From: a virus
IMG/VR virus record: IMGVR_UViG_3300009507_000137
Coordinates: 1-22,796 of that record
Length of the DNA stretch: 22,796 bases
Strand: one strand, 5' to 3'
The notes under the pieces: model-generated
Told to the model about the DNA's origin: nothing
Seen by the model: only the letters and a program-made list of their open reading frames with translations
Database searches by the model: none
Shown: one piece after another, positions 4,185 through 22,172 of the stretch
Numbering within the stretch: the stretch's first letter is position 1
Layout of the letters: each line of letters starts with the position of its first letter
Translations under genes and position numbers: made by a program

Positions 4185-6886
4185 TATCCTCCAATTCGGG
4201 TCATTTGACGACCGCTGTTTTGATTGCTTATGACAATATCATTGCCATCAATGCGGCTGCCAAAAGCCATGGGGTCACCGCCACCCTGAGCAGACCGGAA
4301 ACCAAGGCCACCCGAAAGAAACCCGCTGAGGCCACCATCACCCATAAGCTGAGATGCCGTCGAAGCAAGTCCGGTGGGCGCACCTGCTGCTGTTGTTCCG
4401 CCTGACAGGAGAGCTAGAATTGCATATAAGGCAATTAAAGAAACTAGCTTACCAATGATTCGAGTGAAGAAGCTTAAGAAAGCATTGCCTAGCTCCTTAA
4501 AGAAGTTAGTGCCTCCTTCAAGTGCAGTGCTAAATGCATTGCCTAGCGCGTTAGCAAAATCCCGGACTACCCGAAGCTGATTGACGGTTGTTTCAGCGGC
4601 CTCATCAGCGCTTTCCTTGCGCAGCTTACGGATGTCCTCATCCAACTTGTAGTACAGCTCCCGCTGCTCCTGGACACTGAGTTCAGCGTCCTTCACAATA
4701 TTGTCTACAGCCTGTCTATGGTCCGCAATTTGATTCTCCAAATCTGAGCGAAGGAACTTGGTATATTCTTCCCTAGCTTTCTTTCTTTTAGCGTTGGCCT
4801 GGTCCTCTTGATCCTCAAAAACCTCACCGGTCAACCTTGTCTCAAGAAGCTCTAGTAGCGGAGCAATCTGATCTGATGAGATACCTAGGTCTGCGGCCTC
4901 ATCCGCTATTCCCGCTATTTGCTGTCGAACCCCAATCAGCTTTCTGCCAATGTCACCTGTAGTTAAGCGCTCGAGCTGTAAGTTTAAATCAGCTAAGAAA
5001 GAAGTACGGTCGGCAGCTATGTCAGCCGTTGCAATTGCCCTAAGCGATGCTGCAATACCATCAATCTCATCTCCAGTTCCACCAGCAGCCTTAAGCTGGT
5101 CAACCAAGTTTTTAATTTTAATATTGACTTCAGCTAGCCTCCTTTGATAATCAGGCAATTGCTGCGCACGAGCTTTAGCAAGTTCATTTTCAGCCCTTAA
5201 GAGTAGTTTGGACCTCTTCTTCGAGTTTTCTACTCCTCGTTTTTCAGCGTCCTCAGCGTCAGCCTGAAGCTTGTTTCCGTCAGCGAAGATTTGGTTCAGC
5301 GCTTTCTGCGATTCAGCGCGTTCTCTGGCTGCTACTATCGCTTTGTCTACTTCAAACCTCTCAAGTCTTAATTGATCTATAGTTCTTGTGCGCTCCACAT
5401 AAGCGTCCGCAAGCTCACTTCCAACCGCTGTAAGCGCTTGCGATTTGGTGGCGTTTTCGCCCTCCTCAGCAAGCTTCCGGCCTAACTTTATTGTACCCCG
5501 CTGTAAATCCGTAAGGTCACGAATCTCTTCTCCTAAGGCTGAATAAGTACCCCGTAACCTAGTGATGGCAGCTACTGTTCCATCTACGTCACTAATCTGA
5601 CTTGATGACCTTAAGTCTTGTGAATCTTCTAATAACTGTTTACTTTTTCTAGCTTCTTCTGCTGCAAAACCTACCTCCCCACCAAAATAAGCAGCGGCAG
5701 CGGCGGCAGCCAAAAGAGAAATTACAATTAACCCCGAAGCTGTAGACAAGGCAGCAACTGCAATCGTAAGCTGACCAACAACAAAGGTTAGGCCGGCAAT
5801 GACAGGTGTAAGCGCAATGAAAGTACCTAAAAGAGACTTTGTACCAGGGCTAAGAGATGTAAATACCCTTGCAAGACCAACCATAATGTCTCGCAACACC
5901 TCTGTTGCCGGAACTAAAGTTCTACCTAGCTCAATACCTAAGTTTTGAAAGGCGTTCTTGAGCTGTTCAACAGTAAAGAAAAGCTCTCCTTCAAACTCTT
6001 CAGAAAGCCTATTGGCAGCACCACCAGCTAGGTCAAACAAGACTTGTAAGTCCTTTAAGTCACCACCCTGGTCCTGCAAAATAGAGCCGACAACTGCGGC
6101 ACGGCTATTAAGAATACCGAGGATTTCTGAGTACTCTAAATTGCCTTCAGTAAATTTAGCAAGGGCAACATTACCGTCACTGTATGATTTAGCTAGCTTA
6201 TTAAACGTAGACCTCAGCTTAGTACCGGCAGTAGAGCCCTTAATAGCTGAATTGGCTAGCAAAGCAAGCAGTGCAACAGAGTCTTCTAAACTTACATTTT
6301 GTTGCTTTAGGATTGGACCAATATTTTTTAGTCCCTCTCGCAACTGAGGAATTGTAAGCGCACTGCTTTGCACAGCCTGAGCATACAAGTCAGTAACCCT
6401 TCCTGCCTGATCAGCCTCTAATCTGAAAATGTTCAGAGCCTCCTTTACCGCTGACGCTGAACCTGCTAAGTCCTCATCAAGAGCACCGGCTAGTGAAGAT
6501 ATAGCAGGAATAATGTTGCCGATGTCGCGGCCCGAAGTACCGAGCTTCGCAAGTTCTTTTTGCGCCTCAACAATTTGAATGCGCGTAAAGATTGTGCTTT
6601 CACCTAAGCCCCGCGCTTGTTCAGAGAGTTTACGAAAATCAGCCTTGCCTACAAGGGACCGCAACTGAACACTGACCTTGTTAAACTCCGATGCCGTGCT
6701 AACTGCAGCGCCCCCTACCAAAGCAAACGCAAGACCCAATCCCCGGCTGATACTAGAGCCTACTTTCGTGGCCTTTTGACCAAAAGTGACTAACTTACTT
6801 TGAGCAATCTCAGCGTTCTTCATGAACCCTGTGATATCCATCGTTAGGATGGCACTTAGCCGTGAAAACTCTGATATACTCGCCAT
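4184..6886 (-). CDS. Tail tape measure protein
   Basis: This 900-residue protein is the length-determining core of the tail and probably helps deliver DNA through the envelope. Residues 60-240 resemble the TP901-type tape-measure core, with alternating helices and the segment NIIPAISSLAGALDED near 124. Hydrophobic Ala/Leu/Val-rich segments at about 351-400 could span a membrane. Residues 410-770 are charged, heptad-like and rich in E, K, R and Q, as expected of a long coiled coil. A second hydrophobic stretch (LVSLIALYAILALL) lies near 820. It starts at an ATG overlapping the chaperone stop by one base, and its stop overlaps the next gene's start by one base. Position between tail chaperones and tail-tip protein is the classic siphovirus order. 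Confidence 0.93.
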   Translation of the reverse strand: MASISEFSRLSAILTMDITGFMKNAEIAQSKLVTFGQKATKVGSSISRGLGLAFALVGGAAVSTASEFNKVSVQLRSLVGKADFRKLSEQARGLGESTIFTRIQIVEAQKELAKLGTSGRDIGNIIPAISSLAGALDEDLAGSASAVKEALNIFRLEADQAGRVTDLYAQAVQSSALTIPQLREGLKNIGPILKQQNVSLEDSVALLALLANSAIKGSTAGTKLRSTFNKLAKSYSDGNVALAKFTEGNLEYSEILGILNSRAAVVGSILQDQGGDLKDLQVLFDLAGGAANRLSEEFEGELFFTVEQLKNAFQNLGIELGRTLVPATEVLRDIMVGLARVFTSLSPGTKSLLGTFIALTPVIAGLTFVVGQLTIAVAALSTASGLIVISLLAAAAAAAYFGGEVGFAAEEARKSKQLLEDSQDLRSSSQISDVDGTVAAITRLRGTYSALGEEIRDLTDLQRGTIKLGRKLAEEGENATKSQALTAVGSELADAYVERTRTIDQLRLERFEVDKAIVAARERAESQKALNQIFADGNKLQADAEDAEKRGVENSKKRSKLLLRAENELAKARAQQLPDYQRRLAEVNIKIKNLVDQLKAAGGTGDEIDGIAASLRAIATADIAADRTSFLADLNLQLERLTTGDIGRKLIGVRQQIAGIADEAADLGISSDQIAPLLELLETRLTGEVFEDQEDQANAKRKKAREEYTKFLRSDLENQIADHRQAVDNIVKDAELSVQEQRELYYKLDEDIRKLRKESADEAAETTVNQLRVVRDFANALGNAFSTALEGGTNFFKELGNAFLSFFTRIIGKLVSLIALYAILALLSGGTTAAGAPTGLASTASQLMGDGGLSGFLSGGLGFRSAQGGGDPMAFGSRIDGNDIVISNQNSGRQMTRIGG

Positions 6887-7215
6887 TAGAACTTCTTTAG
6901 TTTAGCAAACAAGGCTTCGCGTTCTTCTGCAGAACTAACCTTGGTTTCAGCCTCTGAAGTTACATCTAGTAGCGGGTGGAAATCAGCCGGTGAAAACCTC
7001 TTGCCTTTCCCGCTATTTACGTTCGCAAGTAACGCTAGGATAGTTGCTGCCATATCCCACTGACGTGCCAACCTAAAGTCATGTCCGCGAGAATACAGGG
7101 AAAACTCTCGGAACGTCATGTCCCAAAACTGATCCGGCGTTAACCCTAAAGCCATGCCCCTTTCGTAAAGGGACCACAAGGTTAGCTCTTCAGCGACCTC
7201 TTCTGAGCCCTTGTT
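6886..7215 (-). CDS. Tail assembly chaperone, downstream frame (T-like part made by -1 frameshift)
   Basis: This frame has no convincing start: only a TTG at 7179, without a ribosome site, opens it. It is, however, continuously open upstream to the slippery run inside the previous gene. A -1 slip there appends NKGSEEVAEELT and then these residues, giving a fusion of about 219 residues. The sequence contains LTPDQFWDMTFREF, a motif seen in second chaperone frames, where a short helix follows the phrase on the number of residues in the region. In lambda the equivalent proteins are gpG and gpGT, which bind the tape measure and recruit tail tube subunits and are absent from virions. Location directly before the tape measure supports this strongly. 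The last base of its stop is the first base of the tape-measure ATG. Confidence 0.85.
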   Translation of the reverse strand, partial: NKGSEEVAEELTLWSLYERGMALGLTPDQFWDMTFREFSLYSRGHDFRLARQWDMAATILALLANVNSGKGKRFSPADFHPLLDVTSEAETKVSSAEEREALFAKLKKF

Positions 7216-7544
7216 TTTTTTTGCTCCTCGTCGCCGCCAAGGGACTCCGTAACAAAGTCCGACATCTCCTCGAACAACCCAGGCTCATCTAAAGCTTGGG
7301 CACAGAAGGTTTCAAAATCAGGGACAGGCTGCTTCTTCCCATGCTTCAGACTGTAGTTCTGAATCCCGTAGTAAACCATACTTGGAACACTATCGAAAGG
7401 GTTCTCGGTAAGGAATGCATCCAACTCACTCAGCTTCAGCTTTTCCTTAGCGCACAGGATGCGAAGGGAATTCATATTAAGCAAAGTGTGGTATGTCTTT
7501 GTACCTACCTTAAAGGAGTACTCTCCTCGAAATTTATTGTCCAT
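7182..7544 (-). CDS. Tail assembly chaperone, upstream frame (G-like)
   Basis: A 120-residue protein that sits between the tail tube genes and the tape measure. It begins FRGEYSFKVGTKTYHTLLNM, a beta hairpin followed by helices typical of small tail chaperones. Its final codons carry a run of nine A bases (on the coding strand) read CAA AAA AAA ACA, a -1 frameshift signal. Most ribosomes would finish at the TAA to give this short form, and a minority would make the long fusion. It starts 2 bases after the stop of the preceding tail-tube extension, without a Shine-Dalgarno sequence. The role is inferred from position and the recoding signature, with weak direct sequence similarity. Confidence 0.85.
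   Translation of the reverse strand: MDNKFRGEYSFKVGTKTYHTLLNMNSLRILCAKEKLKLSELDAFLTENPFDSVPSMVYYGIQNYSLKHGKKQPVPDFETFCAQALDEPGLFEEMSDFVTESLGGDEEQKKTRAQKRSLKS
7215..7221 (-). promoter_or_regulatory. -1 ribosomal frameshift slippery heptamer A_AAA_AAA
   Basis: On the minus strand the zero frame reads CAA AAA AAA ACA AGG. The heptamer A AAA AAA lets both tRNA-Lys re-pair one base back. The next codon then becomes AAC and the frame stays open to the TAA at 6888-6886. The zero frame ends at TAA 7184-7182, so about 30 bases downstream are decoded in both frames. The site matches the known lambda-like G/GT arrangement. No obvious stable pseudoknot was identified by eye downstream. Confidence 0.85.
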
Positions 7545-7546
7545 TA

Positions 7547-8518
7547 TTAGGTAATGTCAAACTGAATGTTAAACAGCGTTGCTGCTTCTGCCGTTGAGTC
7601 AGCGTGTTTAATTCTATAACCAAAGTCATACGTTCCATTAGTGCCGCTTACGGGCAGCCTAAAGAAAAGTTGATGGTTCGCAGAAAAAGGAACTGTAGCC
7701 CCCCAAATAGGGGATGCCGAGAAAAAGGCCAGTTCTAGATATGTTCTAACACCACTAGACGACTCAATAAACATCTCTATCGTATTTTGCGTACTACCAC
7801 TAGTGGCTTGCTGTCCAACAGTAATGTCAAACTCGTCACCCCAACTCGCCGAGTGATTGGTGGTTTGACCAACACTCAAACTGACCAATCCATCACTAGT
7901 CTCAAAAGCTGTCCAGGTTCTCGGCTTATGCAGGGCTAAACCATTAGTAGTAGCCGCGAAGAAATCAAGGTTGTTGGCTAACTCGCTTCCAGTAGGTTGG
8001 CCAAAATCACCGAACGAGTAGCCAATCATATAGCCTACACTAGTTTCACTAGAGCCATCTGTAACCACCGTCTCCAAGTAAGCGTGATTCGCACTATTAT
8101 CGTCAACACTACTGCTATTAGCAAAAATCAAATGACGCTCGTCAGTACCTGGACTAAAACCAGACCAAGTATAATCAACGCTATTACCAACTGAGCCGCT
8201 AATTGTAAACGACTTAGTTTGTACTAATTGCATCGCTTGCCCCATTCCTGGCCACATGTACAACTTAGCTTCGACAGTGTTTCCGTCTACGATATGAGAA
8301 CCACTCAAAGTAAATTGAATGAATGCGTTAGAATCCTGTAAATCAGGCAGAGAATATACCAGTCCATTCGTGTCCTCTACAGATAACGAGCTTGCTGTCT
8401 GCAAATCAGAAATGGCATGGGTGGAAGTACTAGTGGGTGTTGAGAACGGCAGTTCGTTCTCGACGAAACCGCCACCGCCACCGCCGCCACCACCGCTGCC
8501 GCCACCGGCGCCTGCCAG
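7547..8518 (-). CDS. Beta-rich C-terminal extension of tail tube protein, probably made by UAG readthrough
   Basis: This frame of 323 sense codons follows the UAG of the second tail tube gene directly and in the same frame. The first codons after the stop are CTG GCA GGC GCC, then a Gly/Ser linker of about 15 residues. A folded-looking Ser/Thr/Asn-rich region follows, with alternating hydrophobic residues suggesting beta-sandwich domains. There is no in-frame ATG until about residue 86 of the stretch, and no ribosome site near the TTG at 8404 or the CTG at 8518. Independent translation is therefore unlikely. The readthrough product would have about 514 residues. Siphoviruses often add Ig-like or carbohydrate-binding domains to a fraction of major tail proteins by frameshift, and this would be the same idea by stop readthrough. 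Alternatives are a nonsense mutation, a sequencing error, or initiation at a rare start. Confidence 0.65.
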   Translation of the reverse strand: MAGAGGGSGGGGGGGGGFVENELPFSTPTSTSTHAISDLQTASSLSVEDTNGLVYSLPDLQDSNAFIQFTLSGSHIVDGNTVEAKLYMWPGMGQAMQLVQTKSFTISGSVGNSVDYTWSGFSPGTDERHLIFANSSSVDDNSANHAYLETVVTDGSSETSVGYMIGYSFGDFGQPTGSELANNLDFFAATTNGLALHKPRTWTAFETSDGLVSLSVGQTTNHSASWGDEFDITVGQQATSGSTQNTIEMFIESSSGVRTYLELAFFSASPIWGATVPFSANHQLFFRLPVSGTNGTYDFGYRIKHADSTAEAATLFNIQFDIT

Positions 8519-9091
8519 CTAATCTTTAATCAGGCTGTCAACGCCAGAGAAGGTTACCGAGTAAGTTGCAGTTTCATCGACAGCGCCCGTAAGGCTGATG
8601 CTGTCAATAAGGGCAATACCTACGTAAGCCGTTTGGTTGTCCAAGTAGAACCGAACAATAACATACTCACCGTCGTTTGCAATGTCAACGAGGGTACGAC
8701 CGGTATCAGCAAGAACTGACTCAATAAGTCCCTCGGCGGAAACAGTAAAGCTGTTGTCCTTTTCCTGAATCACACCACCCTGACCAGCATCGCGAGCGAC
8801 GTCGTTAATCTCATTGGAGATATCCAAGGTGCTGTTCGTGGCTGCAGCTAGGATTGTAAAGGAACTACGTGCCCATGTTCCGCTACCACCTCCGGTATAT
8901 GATCCGGCAGCAGTAAATTCACCTGCTGTTGTTTTTACAAGGTAAAAGCCCACCACTAAGGATGCAGTGTTCATTGCGGTCTCAATATCTGCGTCTATCG
9001 TGGCAGAATCGACAAAAATCAAGGGCTTGTCAGTGCTATCTGTGTCAATGTGATAGACCGCAAGGTTATTTGCGTTAAGAATACTAGCCAT
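8519..9091 (-). CDS. Major tail tube protein, second paralogue (ends in UAG)
   Basis: A 190-residue tail tube-like protein. It aligns by eye with the gene just upstream. Shared blocks include AATNSTLDISNEINDVARD against AATNTSMDVSNTVNEIVARD, and LTGAVDETATYSVTFSG against LSGGFDDNVTYSVTVNG at the C-terminal strands. Residues 80-120 (FTILAAATN to VSAEGLI) and 141-185 are the best matches. The family forms the hexameric rings through which DNA passes. The start ATG lies 2 bases past the upstream stop. Its stop is TAG, whereas most late genes end in TAA, and the frame continues open beyond it. The product is probably present mainly as the short form, with a minor extended form. Confidence 0.82.
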   Translation of the reverse strand: MASILNANNLAVYHIDTDSTDKPLIFVDSATIDADIETAMNTASLVVGFYLVKTTAGEFTAAGSYTGGGSGTWARSSFTILAAATNSTLDISNEINDVARDAGQGGVIQEKDNSFTVSAEGLIESVLADTGRTLVDIANDGEYVIVRFYLDNQTAYVGIALIDSISLTGAVDETATYSVTFSGVDSLIKD

Positions 9092-9093
9092 GA

Positions 9094-9702
9094 TTATGCA
9101 GTGTAATAGTAAAGTTTACCGTATCCGTTAACAGTAACAGAGTAGGTTACATTGTCGTCAAAACCACCAGAAAGAGAGAAGCTTTCGACCAAGCCCTGGC
9201 CTACGTATACAGTAGAGCTAGTGCTAGTCACGTCAGTATCAAACTTGACAACGACATACTTACTTCCTGAACTAGAAAGAAACATATCCTGAGCATTGTC
9301 ATTACCTGAGTCAGTCAGGAATCCATCCCCTGAAAAACTCCAAGTCTGAGCTCCACTTACGATGTATGTTTCTGAGCCGCCAGCGCCATCACGAGCAACG
9401 ATTTCATTCACCGTATTACTTACGTCCATGCTGGTATTGGTGGCAGCAAGGGCAAGGTTGAAATCTGTAACCTCAGTAAAGGTAGTAGGGGTGGCTGACA
9501 CGCTTATGATGTTGACGAACTTCCGGAAAACCCCCGTGGTACCGACAAGCATGACGTTATCTCCGGCTGCTGCACCATTAGCCTCAGCGTCGGCGACGGC
9601 TAAATCATCGGTGCTTCCTGCGCCAACAATGAATGGATTAGTGCTACCTTCTGTCGTGTCCAACACGTAGAGACCGAGTACTTTCGATTTAATAATTGCC
9701 AT
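9094..9702 (-). CDS. Major tail tube protein, first paralogue
   Basis: A 202-residue protein with the beta-rich, Gly/Ser/Thr-rich composition of siphovirus tail tube proteins. Conserved pieces shared with its downstream neighbour occur near residues 86-105 and 172-193. It follows the HK97 gp10-like gene with a 6-base gap and precedes the paralogue by 2 bases, the usual place for the tube gene. No Shine-Dalgarno precedes the ATG; the leader is AAATAAATCGAC. It ends in TAA and shows no extension. Whether both paralogues build one mixed tube, or one forms the tip-proximal or terminal rings, cannot be told from the sequence. Confidence 0.8.
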   Translation of the reverse strand: MAIIKSKVLGLYVLDTTEGSTNPFIVGAGSTDDLAVADAEANGAAAGDNVMLVGTTGVFRKFVNIISVSATPTTFTEVTDFNLALAATNTSMDVSNTVNEIVARDGAGGSETYIVSGAQTWSFSGDGFLTDSGNDNAQDMFLSSSGSKYVVVKFDTDVTSTSSTVYVGQGLVESFSLSGGFDDNVTYSVTVNGYGKLYYYTA

Positions 9703-10550: not shown

Positions 10551-11470
10551 CAGTATTGCCTTACACTAGATACCAAGCGCCGGACGCCCTCCTTTACCTC
10601 CGTGGTAATACCGCCTACTATTTCTGCCTCGCGCATGTTGTAGTAGTGACCAATCAACAATAAGGCCGCCTGGACATACTGCTTCGGTAGAGAACCTAAA
10701 GCGGTACCGCAGCTGACGCGCAACCTGAAACTCATTTTCTCCCCTCCCTCACTAAGCTGCTGGCATAGCTCACTGTAATCAAACTGACTTGGGTACTGGT
10801 CAGTCATGGCAGTATGCTTGAATAAAGTGCCGTTGTTTATCGCGAAGTAGGAGCTACTCGTATGCGTATGGTCACCAGTGACTGTCCCGTCAATACGGTA
10901 TAGTCCCGCCTGAAGGTTTTGAAACGTATGGACTGTATAGCCGCCCGAGCCGCTAGCTGTATCTACCTGAACATACTGCTCAGTATGCCAATTATAGCGG
11001 CTTAAAGTATGTGTGATAGCCGAAGGTGTGTCGCTAGTGTCAGTGACTAATTGCTGCACATCAACGGAAGTATTAAAGACATCAACGTCAACAACCCTGT
11101 TTACTGCGGTACCGCCTGTAAAAGAGAGTTGAACAAAGTGGTGACCGTGGACCTCATCGTCGGGCACTACCGGAATGTGCTTCGTAAATACACCATTTTC
11201 AAAATACTCCAAAGACAATACAGAAGTAATGCCCTGAAGCTTTTGAATGCGAAAAGGTGCCCTGAACTCAGAGTAGTCCAGGAGCACCTTCGCAGTAGAT
11301 AGACCGAGAACTCGGTCGGAAAGATTTTGCAGATAGTCTACCGCAGCATCGCGATAGATATCTAGCAGGTCATCTTCAGATTCATCAATCGCACGAACGT
11401 GAGCCCGCATGGTAACGGAGCTCACGAACGTGTCGTCTATAGGCGATGTGCGATTGACTTCATAGAACAT
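10550..11470 (-). CDS. Head-tail connector (gp6-like) with a large central insertion
   Basis: The 306-residue product has the two ends expected of HK97 gp6-type connectors. The N-terminal helical part (about 20-60) contains DLLDIYRDAAVDYLQNL. The C-terminal part has LPKQYVQAALLLIGHYYNMR followed by the EGVRRLVSSVRQY end. Usual members are about 100-200 residues. Here roughly residues 125-240 are extra, rich in Thr, Ser, His, Gly and aromatics, and look like a beta-sandwich inserted into the connector. The gene lies between the capsid and head-tail joining genes and shares one base with each neighbour. The connector role is fairly secure, whereas the function of the insertion is unknown. Confidence 0.8.
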   Translation of the reverse strand: MFYEVNRTSPIDDTFVSSVTMRAHVRAIDESEDDLLDIYRDAAVDYLQNLSDRVLGLSTAKVLLDYSEFRAPFRIQKLQGITSVLSLEYFENGVFTKHIPVVPDDEVHGHHFVQLSFTGGTAVNRVVDVDVFNTSVDVQQLVTDTSDTPSAITHTLSRYNWHTEQYVQVDTASGSGGYTVHTFQNLQAGLYRIDGTVTGDHTHTSSSYFAINNGTLFKHTAMTDQYPSQFDYSELCQQLSEGGEKMSFRLRVSCGTALGSLPKQYVQAALLLIGHYYNMREAEIVGGITTEVKEGVRRLVSSVRQY

Positions 11471-13356
11471 TAGTCGCGGTAACCGGTGAAACCGTAGCCA
11501 CCGAAGTTAGTTCCGGTTCGGTTCGTCATGTCCGTCAGGGTCTTAAAGGACCGGTACACGTTGGCGATGATGCGAACGACCCCGCTATCGGCGTCAGTGT
11601 AAGGGTCAATAATCAAATTTAAACCACCCCACCTACATTGTACGGCGCGGGTAGCGTCCATCATGTACAGGTGACCGGCGTCAACAGAGCTATTGATGAC
11701 CGTCGGGTACTCGAGGACGGATTGGCGGGTACTTGGGGAAGAGGCAAACAGCAGACCGGAACCGGCGTCGAGAGAGAGCTGACGATTAGTACGGTAAGCG
11801 GTAGGGCTAGTGAGAACGCGAATGTTCTGATTGTCTACGTTGTCAATCATCAAATCCTCCTCCATATGAAGGGCGTTCTGAGTTGCGGCGGCGAATTGGG
11901 CAATCGTTCCACCAGCGCGGTGATCAGCAGCTGCGTCAATAGCAGAGACAACAGTGGTGTTGAACTTTGCGTCCACAGCCTTGCGAATCTCAGAAGCAAC
12001 AAAAGCGCCGAGATCGTCAGAGGTCTGAGCCAAGAGCTGCTCGGTCACCTGAACGTGAGCGGAAACCCGGGTTGGGGTCAGCTCAATGGCGCTGAACGTC
12101 ATGTTGCCCACTGCCTGGGGTGCGCTCTCATTTGGGGTAGCCGTTCCGGGAGGCTTGTCCGCAACTTGGAAGACAACATTACCGCTGACGCCCGTGACCG
12201 TGCGCACACCCAGCTGCGTGGCGACGTCGTTCGGGTGCAAGAACTCGGTGAACCCCTGGTCGGCTACACCAATCTTACCACCAAACGCGTCAGCCGTGGT
12301 GCCTACCGTCGCGGTTCCGAGGGCGTCAACACGCTTCTCCGTAAGAAAACTCGGGACGCTGATGCCACCGGCGATGTTCACCTTAGAGTCGGTAAACTCT
12401 GATCGAGCCTCTTGGTTCATCTCTGCTTCAAGGCCAGAGAGCTTACCTTGTGCGGCCTCACGAAGGGCCTTTCCAAAGCTGTAACGCTGTTGGACATTTG
12501 ACTGTTGGTCGCCCCGGCTTTGTACGATAGCCGGAGCATTCTTTTCGTTCTCCATGGTATGGGAATTTGAATTATTAGAATTGCGAGCCTCCGGCTCAGG
12601 GATTATTTCTTCTAGTGCGTAAGGATGTGGAAGGATGGCGGGGTCAATGAGCTGGTCAACGCGCTCTTCTTCCTCCTCCTCTTCTTCCTCGTCCTCCATC
12701 TTTTCCTCTTTCTCTTCCTCCTCGGCTTCGGATTTCTCCTCTTTCTCTTCCTCCTCGTCCTTGGCGCCATACGCCTTCTCTTCCTTCTCCTCCTCCTCTT
12801 CTTCGGCGCGAACCTCCTCTTCCTCAATCAGTGCCACATCCTCATTAGCGAGAGCAGTCTCCATGCTGCGAAGGCCGACATCAGTGGTTGGGTAGGCACC
12901 CTGGGTTGTGGGAGAAACGTCGAACAAAAGATCTACTTCTTTAATTGTACGCAAATTAACACCGTCATCCCTGCGTTCCCACTCATCATCACGGACAGTA
13001 AAACCAAAGGAGCTAGTGCTTACGTTGCCCATGCGAATGTTCTCTACGAGATCTTTTGCATAGGATTGATTTCCAATCTCAAAACGGTACTTGAGCCCAC
13101 GTTTATCGACACTAAGCTCTAAGCCTCGCCCGACACGCGCCAAGGGTTGATTGATGTCGTGATTGAATAGCGCAACAGTGTTGTCCATCCGAGCACCTTT
13201 AAATGCACCAGGGGCAACCCGTTCGGCGAACTGCCCACCGATGACCGTCTCATCGTTAAATACGGCAGCGTAGCCCTCAATGACAGGATTCTTGTCGGCA
13301 GCCTCACGGACTTCTACAGATCCTGTTAGAATTCGAATTTCTTTCTTGTCTGACAT
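11470..13356 (-). CDS. Prohead protease / Glu-rich linker / major capsid protein fusion
   Basis: A single frame of 628 residues combines the HK97 maturation protease with the HK97-fold major capsid protein. Residues 1-165 are a Peptidase_S78 domain: IEGYAAVFN near 27, a conserved His in LFNHD (His66), and the Ser in SSFGF (Ser116). Residues 178-232 are almost pure Glu with Lys, Asp and Ala, probably an unstructured scaffold-like delta region. Capsid sequence starts about residue 268, near MENEKNAP, and shows INPS-like strands, GTATPNESA, and a C-terminal Gly/Phe-rich end. I prefer the ATG at 13356; a GTG at 13392 would add 12 residues inside the upstream gene. The internal ATG at 12555 has no ribosome site, so separate capsid translation seems unlikely. 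Cleavage after the linker would release mature capsid. Confidence 0.87.
   Translation of the reverse strand: MSDKKEIRILTGSVEVREAADKNPVIEGYAAVFNDETVIGGQFAERVAPGAFKGARMDNTVALFNHDINQPLARVGRGLELSVDKRGLKYRFEIGNQSYAKDLVENIRMGNVSTSSFGFTVRDDEWERRDDGVNLRTIKEVDLLFDVSPTTQGAYPTTDVGLRSMETALANEDVALIEEEEVRAEEEEEEKEEKAYGAKDEEEEKEEKSEAEEEEKEEKMEDEEEEEEEEERVDQLIDPAILPHPYALEEIIPEPEARNSNNSNSHTMENEKNAPAIVQSRGDQQSNVQQRYSFGKALREAAQGKLSGLEAEMNQEARSEFTDSKVNIAGGISVPSFLTEKRVDALGTATVGTTADAFGGKIGVADQGFTEFLHPNDVATQLGVRTVTGVSGNVVFQVADKPPGTATPNESAPQAVGNMTFSAIELTPTRVSAHVQVTEQLLAQTSDDLGAFVASEIRKAVDAKFNTTVVSAIDAAADHRAGGTIAQFAAATQNALHMEEDLMIDNVDNQNIRVLTSPTAYRTNRQLSLDAGSGLLFASSPSTRQSVLEYPTVINSSVDAGHLYMMDATRAVQCRWGGLNLIIDPYTDADSGVVRIIANVYRSFKTLTDMTNRTGTNFGGYGFTGYRD
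12661..12836 (-). repeat. Low-complexity GAG/GAA tract encoding the Glu-rich linker
   Basis: A nearly pure purine tract (on the coding strand) encodes runs of Glu and Lys. It contains one exact 20-base direct repeat, at 12705-12724 and 12738-12757, with a 33-base period. Such tracts expand and contract by replication slippage in multiples of three or 33 bases, so linker length may vary among relatives. Confidence 0.8.
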
Positions 13357-13360
13357 GACT

Positions 13361-13687
13361 TTACTTTTTTCCTTCGACTTTATTAATGACACCGCTACAC
13401 CAGCTCTTCATGGAGCTCCCGCCCCACGCCGCATACATAACGCTACCGCAGATTTCTTTGCCATCTTTATCGTAAAACCCACCTGTATTGTAAGTGGCAC
13501 TTCGGCTCAAGAAGCTAAAGGTTCTTTTTATTGTAGACAGACTAAGCTTTTTTCCGGACGCGATTTGATTAGCACGTTGCCAGCCCACATTCGTCCCGCA
13601 AGAAGACCCTTTGTCCTCTTTGTGTTTCAGTGCCTTGCGGGCCGCTGCCTTAGCCGAAGCTGGATATCCCCCGTAACTTTCAGCCAT
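13361..13687 (-). CDS. Small Cys-containing phage protein with GWQRANQIASG motif
   Basis: The product has 108 residues when started at the ATG at 13687, which overlaps the upstream stop as TAATG; a TTG at 13699 would add four residues. It begins with a basic helical SYGGYPASAKAAARKALKH, then SSCGTNVGWQRANQIASGKK, and a C-terminal WGGSSMKSWCSGV. I recall similar short modules in phage structural clusters, sometimes linked to prohead protease or portal genes, where the pattern G-x-x-R-A-x-Q-I/L-A-x-G plus a terminal W-G-G recurs. I do not know a function for them. Four Cys residues are present, unlike most neighbours. It lies 4 bases before the protease-capsid gene, so a role in head assembly is plausible but unproven. 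Confidence 0.6.
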   Translation of the reverse strand: MAESYGGYPASAKAAARKALKHKEDKGSSCGTNVGWQRANQIASGKKLSLSTIKRTFSFLSRSATYNTGGFYDKDGKEICGSVMYAAWGGSSMKSWCSGVINKVEGKK

Positions 13688-21293: not shown

Positions 21294-21611
21294 ATGAACC
21301 CTCTCAACCCCCGCCCGATGAGCAATCCCAAGCAAATCCAAAAGCAGTTGGCCCGTGAGAAGGCCCACGCGGAACGCATGGCCGCCCCGAACGGCTTCGT
21401 CATCTACAAGTACTCCTTCAGTGAGATGAAGCGGATGTACGTCAAGTCTATCTCCGACAGCCTGGACTACGTCGATGAGGTCGAGTACACCGAAGAGAAG
21501 TCCGAGGCCCTCGTTCACCCCAACTACGAATCCGCCCGGTGGGACACCGCAGGACGCGACCACCTCGAGTACGTCATCGTCGGCGAGGTCTTCCGCATCG
21601 AAAAACTTTAA
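21294..21611 (+). CDS. Small early protein, unknown
   Basis: A 105-residue protein that begins MNPLNPRPMSNPKQIQKQLA. The N-terminal 30 residues form a charged, Gln/Lys/Arg-rich helix. The rest mixes aromatic-rich strands (GFVIYKYSFSEMKRMY) with an acidic middle (DEVEYTEEKSEALV) and a hydrophobic end, EYVIVGEVFRIEKL. The opening MNxxNPR closely resembles the next gene's start, MNLMNPR, including the nucleotides, suggesting a duplicated 5' end or a shared initiation sequence. Function is unknown. Confidence 0.68.
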   Translation: MNPLNPRPMSNPKQIQKQLAREKAHAERMAAPNGFVIYKYSFSEMKRMYVKSISDSLDYVDEVEYTEEKSEALVHPNYESARWDTAGRDHLEYVIVGEVFRIEKL

Positions 21612-21624
21612 CCCCACATTACGA
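21611..21624 (+). repeat. 14-base element ACCCCACATTACGA, copy 1
   Basis: An exact copy recurs at 21862-21875. This one overlaps the final base of the previous stop codon and ends 3 bases before the next ATG (21628), where a ribosome site would be expected. It may mark a translation-initiation or operator sequence. Confidence 0.5.
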
Positions 21625-21627
21625 GAC

Positions 21628-21888
21628 ATGAACCTTATGAACCCCCGCACACGTCGGCGCTCATCACCTCTCGACAGGTTGGTGATGCGCAACTCCAATG
21701 GCGAGTACCTCGTCAGCTATCAGAGCAAATTGGGCAACTACTTCTTGGTCAAGAGCGACGACCTCGCCGATGCCCGCAGTTTCACAAGAGTACAACGCCG
21801 CTTCATCGAGAAAGTTCTCGGATTCACGACAGTAAGATACGGCGATTGTGTACACAACACGACCCCACATTACGACGACCAACGCTAA
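21628..21888 (+). CDS. Small basic early protein, unknown
   Basis: The 86-residue frame starts MNLMNPRTRRRSSPLDRLV, with a very basic N-terminus. It continues with a beta-like NGEYLVSYQSKLGNYFLVKS and a helix FTRVQRRFIEKVLGF. I chose the ATG at 21628 because it sits behind the CA-rich leader and has the same MNxxNPR opening as the previous gene; the frame remains open further upstream but within the neighbour's coding region. The 14-base repeat's second copy lies inside its last codons. Function is unknown. Confidence 0.68.
   Translation: MNLMNPRTRRRSSPLDRLVMRNSNGEYLVSYQSKLGNYFLVKSDDLADARSFTRVQRRFIEKVLGFTTVRYGDCVHNTTPHYDDQR
21862..21875 (+). repeat. 14-base element ACCCCACATTACGA, copy 2
   Basis: Identical to 21611-21624. 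It is inside the last codons of the 86-residue ORF, and ends 18 bases before the ATG at 21894. Confidence 0.5.
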
Positions 21889-21893
21889 TTACT

Positions 21894-22172
21894 ATGTATC
21901 AATACCGCCCCCTTTTCGTACAGATGGAGCAGAATAACGACGGCTCCGACCGCGTCTTCATCGCAGACCTCGACAGCGAGACCAATGAGCCCTGCGACGG
22001 CTTGACAATCTCTTACGACTACAGACTCAACACGGCTCGTCAGGTAGCTATCAAGTACCTGAACTCCATTGATGTCTACGTCCACGGCTACACGGTCAAC
22101 GACGACCACTACATCCTGTACATCACAGACTTCGCATTCATCCTCAATAAACCAACCACCTCAAATGGCTAA
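21894..22172 (+). CDS. Small acidic early protein, unknown
   Basis: A 92-residue protein starting MYQYRPLFVQMEQNNDGSDR. It is acidic and predicted by eye as beta-rich, with VFIADLDSETNEP, a helix RLNTARQVAIKYLNS, and hydrophobic strands IDVYVHGY, HYILYITDFAFIL. I chose this ATG rather than one 48 bases upstream because the upstream region is the end of the previous gene, and no ribosome site supports it. The stop overlaps the next gene's ATG region by 8 bases. No family is recognised. Confidence 0.68.
   Translation: MYQYRPLFVQMEQNNDGSDRVFIADLDSETNEPCDGLTISYDYRLNTARQVAIKYLNSIDVYVHGYTVNDDHYILYITDFAFILNKPTTSNG

Follow-up and report, generated by a model that had tools for sequence, protein, structure and literature searches.

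The product of tail-tube gene 2 in the virus record analysed here is very probably extended by programmed readthrough of its UAG stop codon, as judged from sequence comparison. The record, a 22.8-kb stretch hereafter called the window, carries the structural genes of a long-tailed phage on its minus strand, namely terminase, portal, protease-capsid, connectors, two tail-tube genes, chaperones and tape measure. A sequence-only reading had described a 190-residue tube frame that ends in TAG and stays open for 323 more codons, and the ORF and its translation confirm these coordinates and counts (190 + 1 + 323 = 514; Table 1). The stop is followed by the codons CTG GCA GGC GCC and directly by the Gly-rich sequence LAGAGGGSGGGGGGGGG. 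We favour readthrough because the extension lies in frame with the tube gene, this layout is conserved, the TAG is constant, the downstream frame is under coding selection and no usable start was found for it, and the same points support the earlier proposal of UAG readthrough. The sequence hallmarks of readthrough are thus present at this locus: an in-frame downstream frame without a start, a conserved stop and protein-level selection from the stop onward.

Table 1. Features of the tail-tube region in the window.
Feature	Position	Strand	Evidence
Tail-tube gene 1, paralogue without extension, TAA end	9094..9702	(-)	Phage_tail_2 E 5.1e-11; paralogy to tube 2, profile E 9.8e-23
Tail-tube gene 2, 190 aa, UAG end	8519..9091	(-)	Pfam Phage_tail_2 E 4.9e-7; PHROG 1407 major tail protein E 1.3e-11
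Proposed readthrough site: the UAG stop, in the context AAA GAU UAG CUG	8519..8521	(-)	TAG in 6/6 extension genotypes; TAA in extension-less L015
Gly-rich linker LAGAGGGSGGGGGGGGG	8468..8518	(-)	Translation; L006 and L008 linkers likewise Gly-rich
In-frame extension, 323 codons, probably two beta-sandwich domains	7550..8518	(-)	L008 70%, L006 49%; low-confidence all-beta model
TAA closing the extended frame	7547..7549	(-)	

Scans of IMG/VR returned one contig (L002/L017) whose tube and extension proteins are identical to those of the window, and six distinct relatives that have the tube genes (L003, L004/L012, L005/L006/L014, L008/L018, L016 and L015). In the window and in five of the six relatives (L003, L004, L006, L008 and L016) the TAG is followed by 265-325 in-frame open codons, the extension of L003 counting at least 274 codons because the end of the contig is reached. 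Tube 2 identity among these extension genotypes goes down to 42%, and the extension stands in frame 0 relative to tube 2 in all six, with both of the module types described below in frame. The tube protein itself ends in VDSLIKD in the window, L003, L004, L006 and L008 and in VDKLYEQI in L016, each time with the TAG next. The remaining relative, L015, has no extension; its tube 2 stops at TAA, and the ATG of the chaperone is the fourth codon after that stop. Searches with the extension sequences found the extension only behind this TAG. As to whether TAG and linker are conserved among relatives, the TAG is kept in 6/6 genotypes; three of these have a Gly-rich linker and the other three a Pro/Thr-rich one. 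A relative with a start codon and an expression signal of its own for the extension, which would speak against readthrough, was not seen among those found. GenBank phages and GTDB genomes yielded no relative, and the terminase and portal matches listed were all below 36% identity and do not place the phage.

The constancy of the TAG stands out against the other genes of the same genomes, where 60 stops from 11 other orthologous genes comprise 46 TAA, 10 TGA and 4 TAG, and where stop codon identity varies between genomes in 8 of the 11. Between several extension genomes tube 2 has a dS of 1.3-2.5, and still the TAG is constant. We quote no probability for this constancy, the six extension genotypes all being related; that TAG is kept over such divergence and is TAA in the lone relative lacking the extension nevertheless argues for selection on the identity of the tube 2 stop. 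Conservation also reaches past the stop. The next codon is CTG, TTG, CTG, CTG, CTC and CCC in the window, L003, L004, L006, L008 and L016, respectively, meaning that leucine is kept directly after the TAG in five of six genotypes through three different codons. In L004, L006 and L008 the residues after the stop read L-[IT]-Y, ahead of different modules.

The earlier statement that no in-frame ATG lies near the beginning of the extension proved correct for the window, where no ATG, GTG or TTG occurs for 38 codons and the first ones are TTG at codon 39, ATG at codon 88 and GTG at codon 151. The first ATG of the extension falls at codon 18 in L004, 59 in L006, 167 in L008 and 31 in L016, and L003 has none. 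True same-frame neighbours have an ATG 2-11 codons past the stop (135 ORFs of 100 or more codons at nine loci), as seen at the terminase-portal, Neck1-tube 1 and extension-chaperone pairs, whereas the junction of tube 2 and extension lacks such an ATG in every genome that has the extension. The few further in-frame open runs in this nine-locus scan can be put down to antisense ORFs and to a chance run at 21609. In the window, L008 and L006, protein conservation starts ahead of any ATG, GTG or TTG; between the window and L008, conservation is seen in a stretch of only 21 codons ahead of the first possible start. We give little weight to the absence of a Shine-Dalgarno motif before the extension because such motifs are, by eye, weak or absent before most genes of the window.

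Over the whole extension, window and L008 differ with a dN of 0.23 and a dS of 0.49, values from which we conclude that the frame is under coding, purifying selection. When the window (7550-8518(-)) is set against L008:1301-2275, the dS of 0.49 in the extension compares with 1.7 in the adjoining tube 2, a gap that fits exchange of the extension between phages. The extensions fall into two module types: type 1, with the Gly-rich linker, in the window, L006 and L008 (49-70% identity to the window), and type 2, with the Pro/Thr-rich linker, in L003, L004 and L016 (26-35% identity to L004). The profile match between the types is weak (E 0.009, probability 4.5%) and a GxxxxGN motif is common to both; together they hint, without proof, that the first domains of the two types are related. 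Neither Pfam nor PHROG gave a family match to the extensions. The best PDB sequence matches, to the linkers of antibody scFv, were set aside as they rest on the Gly-rich linker. AlphaFold gave an all-beta model for the window extension at a poor pLDDT of 39.5, and a fold search with this model returned no match at E<=0.001. For L004 the extension model (pLDDT 52) is similar to tandem Ig/FN3 proteins at TM-scores below 0.45, phage FN3 and Big_1 proteins being among these low-scoring matches. From these models, the extension likely consists of two Ig/FN3-like domains.

Three other explanations of the layout were weighed. In one, the extension would be a separate protein made by termination-reinitiation at a non-AUG codon (CUG, UUG or GUG) after the UAG. 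Such codons are indeed at hand, with CTG or TTG directly after the TAG in the window, L003, L004 and L006 and GTG as the second codon in L016; a usual start thus lies at or next to the stop in L003 (TTG) and L016 (CCC GTG), where reinitiation is possible, and the genes here are tightly coupled with frequent overlap of stop and start. In L008, however, the TAG is followed by CTC ATA, with no ATG, GTG or TTG until codon 40, which contradicts a separate gene with a non-AUG start. None of the six genotypes has an ATG near the 5' end of the extension, against an ATG within 2-11 codons in the other in-frame neighbours, and reinitiation leaves the constant tube frame, the constant TAG and the conserved leucine unexplained. 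We therefore consider it unlikely.

The host or the phage might instead read UAG as sense, by reassignment or a suppressor tRNA, in which case the tube protein would always be 514 aa long. Some gut phages do read TAG as glutamine (PMC9523058). Against this, TAG serves as an ordinary stop of the portal gene in the window, L012 and L014 and of a chaperone gene in L016, no internal TAG occurs in the other conserved structural genes compared, and no tRNA was found in any of the records, which are incomplete. The portal frame of the window closes 5 codons after its TAG, in agreement with the earlier view that UAG is not globally reassigned, and the hallmarks of code 15 (TAG inside many genes, often a suppressor tRNA) are absent. 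Given the ordinary use of TAG as a stop and the lack of a tRNA, reassignment is very improbable. A nonsense mutation or an assembly error in a truly continuous fusion gene would leave a TAG in an otherwise open frame of a single genome, but six distinct genotypes with protein identities as low as 42% share this TAG, and past it the frame stays open under purifying selection. Sequencing error is an unlikely cause of the TAG for the same kind of reason, as the layout recurs in five other, clearly different contigs, and we regard this last explanation as next to impossible.

Under programmed readthrough, most ribosomes would stop translating at the UAG, yielding the 190-aa tail-tube subunit, and a minority would decode it as an amino acid, probably via a near-cognate tRNA. 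The second product, of 514 aa, would add to the same subunit a flexible linker and two domains of the beta-sandwich (Ig/FN3-like) type. The tail tube would take up both forms, and on some of its subunits the domains would be exposed at the tail surface and aid attachment there. That the extended subunit is minor, surface-displayed and adhesive we infer with less confidence than readthrough itself. The base after the UAG is C in 5/6 genotypes; +4C raises readthrough in yeast and +4U lowers it in E. coli, where a glutamine tRNA is able to misread UAG (PMC5289835). The 100 nt after the stop were not consistently better folded than shuffles, L004 alone standing out (z -2.7), and the consensus fold of the six sequences at the junction was weak, giving no conserved stimulatory RNA structure 3' of the stop, an element that some readthrough sites do without. 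An RNAalifold hairpin holding the UAG, CAGCCUGAUU-AAA-GAUUAGCUG, was given no weight: most of it falls within conserved codons, some of its pairs are lost in L006 and L008, and it shows no covariation. The lack of a conserved RNA structure, the +4C context and the reported decoding data together favour near-cognate decoding in a weak stop context.

Tube 1 adjoins tube 2 on its upstream side, and the tandem tail-tube pair (window 8519-9702(-)), which the earlier reading did not mention, is kept in 7/7 genotypes. In all seven, tube 1 ends in TAA and carries no extension, and therefore only the second of the two tube proteins is extended. It seems likely that this lineage of uncultured phages uses UAG readthrough to set the ratio of decorated to plain tube subunits, the stop being fixed and the Ig-like modules behind it exchangeable, and that the undecorated paralogue forms part of the same tube.

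Readthrough of a coat-gene stop is an established way of making a minor extended virion subunit. In Q-beta the stop is UGA and the product is termed A1. The CP-RTD of poleroviruses arises through readthrough of the coat-protein stop and is again a minor extended subunit of the virion (PMC9553062). Both cases concern RNA viruses and capsid proteins, whereas ours concerns the tail tube of a tailed DNA phage. A close likeness in function is to the Bacillus phage SPP1, whose tail contains the plain gp17.1 and the extended gp17.1* at 3:1 (PMC6316719, PMC8718954). There, too, a single tail-tube gene is recoded at its stop, and the extension is an Ig-like (FN3) domain; SPP1 however uses a +1 frameshift at CCC UAA that adds 87 residues, and here 323 residues are added at a UAG with no change of frame. 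In lactococcal phages of the 936 group, TpeX is made by frameshift and was shown to bind host cells (PMC6669499). The 936 major tail protein with TpeX resembles the present protein in having a long, beta-rich extension on part of the tube subunits that varies in sequence between phages, and differs in that TpeX depends on a frameshift, follows an adhesin domain and is unrelated in sequence to the present extension. Extended second products of the major tail or coat gene are made by +1 or -1 frameshift, and not by readthrough, in the Listeria phages A118, A500 and PSA and in coliphage T3, where the extension is Ig-like (PMC5009743). In lambda gpV and T5 pb6, a C-terminal Ig-like domain sits on the outer face of the tube (PMC8718954), but it is present on every subunit and involves no recoding. 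Compared with major tail genes of the frameshift type, the present gene shares the optional beta-rich C-terminal domain on a tube gene, as far as the low-confidence models go, and lacks an extension in the +1 or -1 frame behind a slippery site, its extension being in frame 0 in 6/6 genotypes. By analogy, the best explanation is that it works like SPP1 gp17.1* by another recoding route.

A full-text literature search found no reported tail-tube readthrough; its coverage falls short of most subscription journals, and priority is not established. If true, this would be the first tailed-phage tail-tube extension made via readthrough instead of frameshift, and would show that tailed phages have a third recoding route to a minor, decorated tail subunit. 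Such an outcome is expected if Ig-like modules are acquired in whatever frame and the leakiness of the junction is then tuned by selection. The locus would also make available, in a bacterial system, a UAG readthrough site that nature has conserved. For annotation, standard gene calling truncates such proteins or misplaces their start.

Some further features of the window were noted. In the chaperone gene (7182-7544(-)), a run of nine A (GCAAAAAAAAAC) lies at 7214-7222(-), and the -1 frame opens into 6886-7179; the same A-run and frame relation are present in L018, L015 and L016. The arrangement is reminiscent of lambda G/GT, where tail chaperones undergo a -1 frameshift, and two recoding events would then lie in neighbouring genes. 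At 11470-13392(-), the prohead protease (Peptidase_S78) and capsid domains share one frame of 640 aa with a long Glu/Lys-rich join. Finally, the ORF at 21294-21611, within 21294-22172(+), ends in TAA and is followed by 186 open in-frame codons, which are most simply explained as the next gene lying by chance in the same frame.
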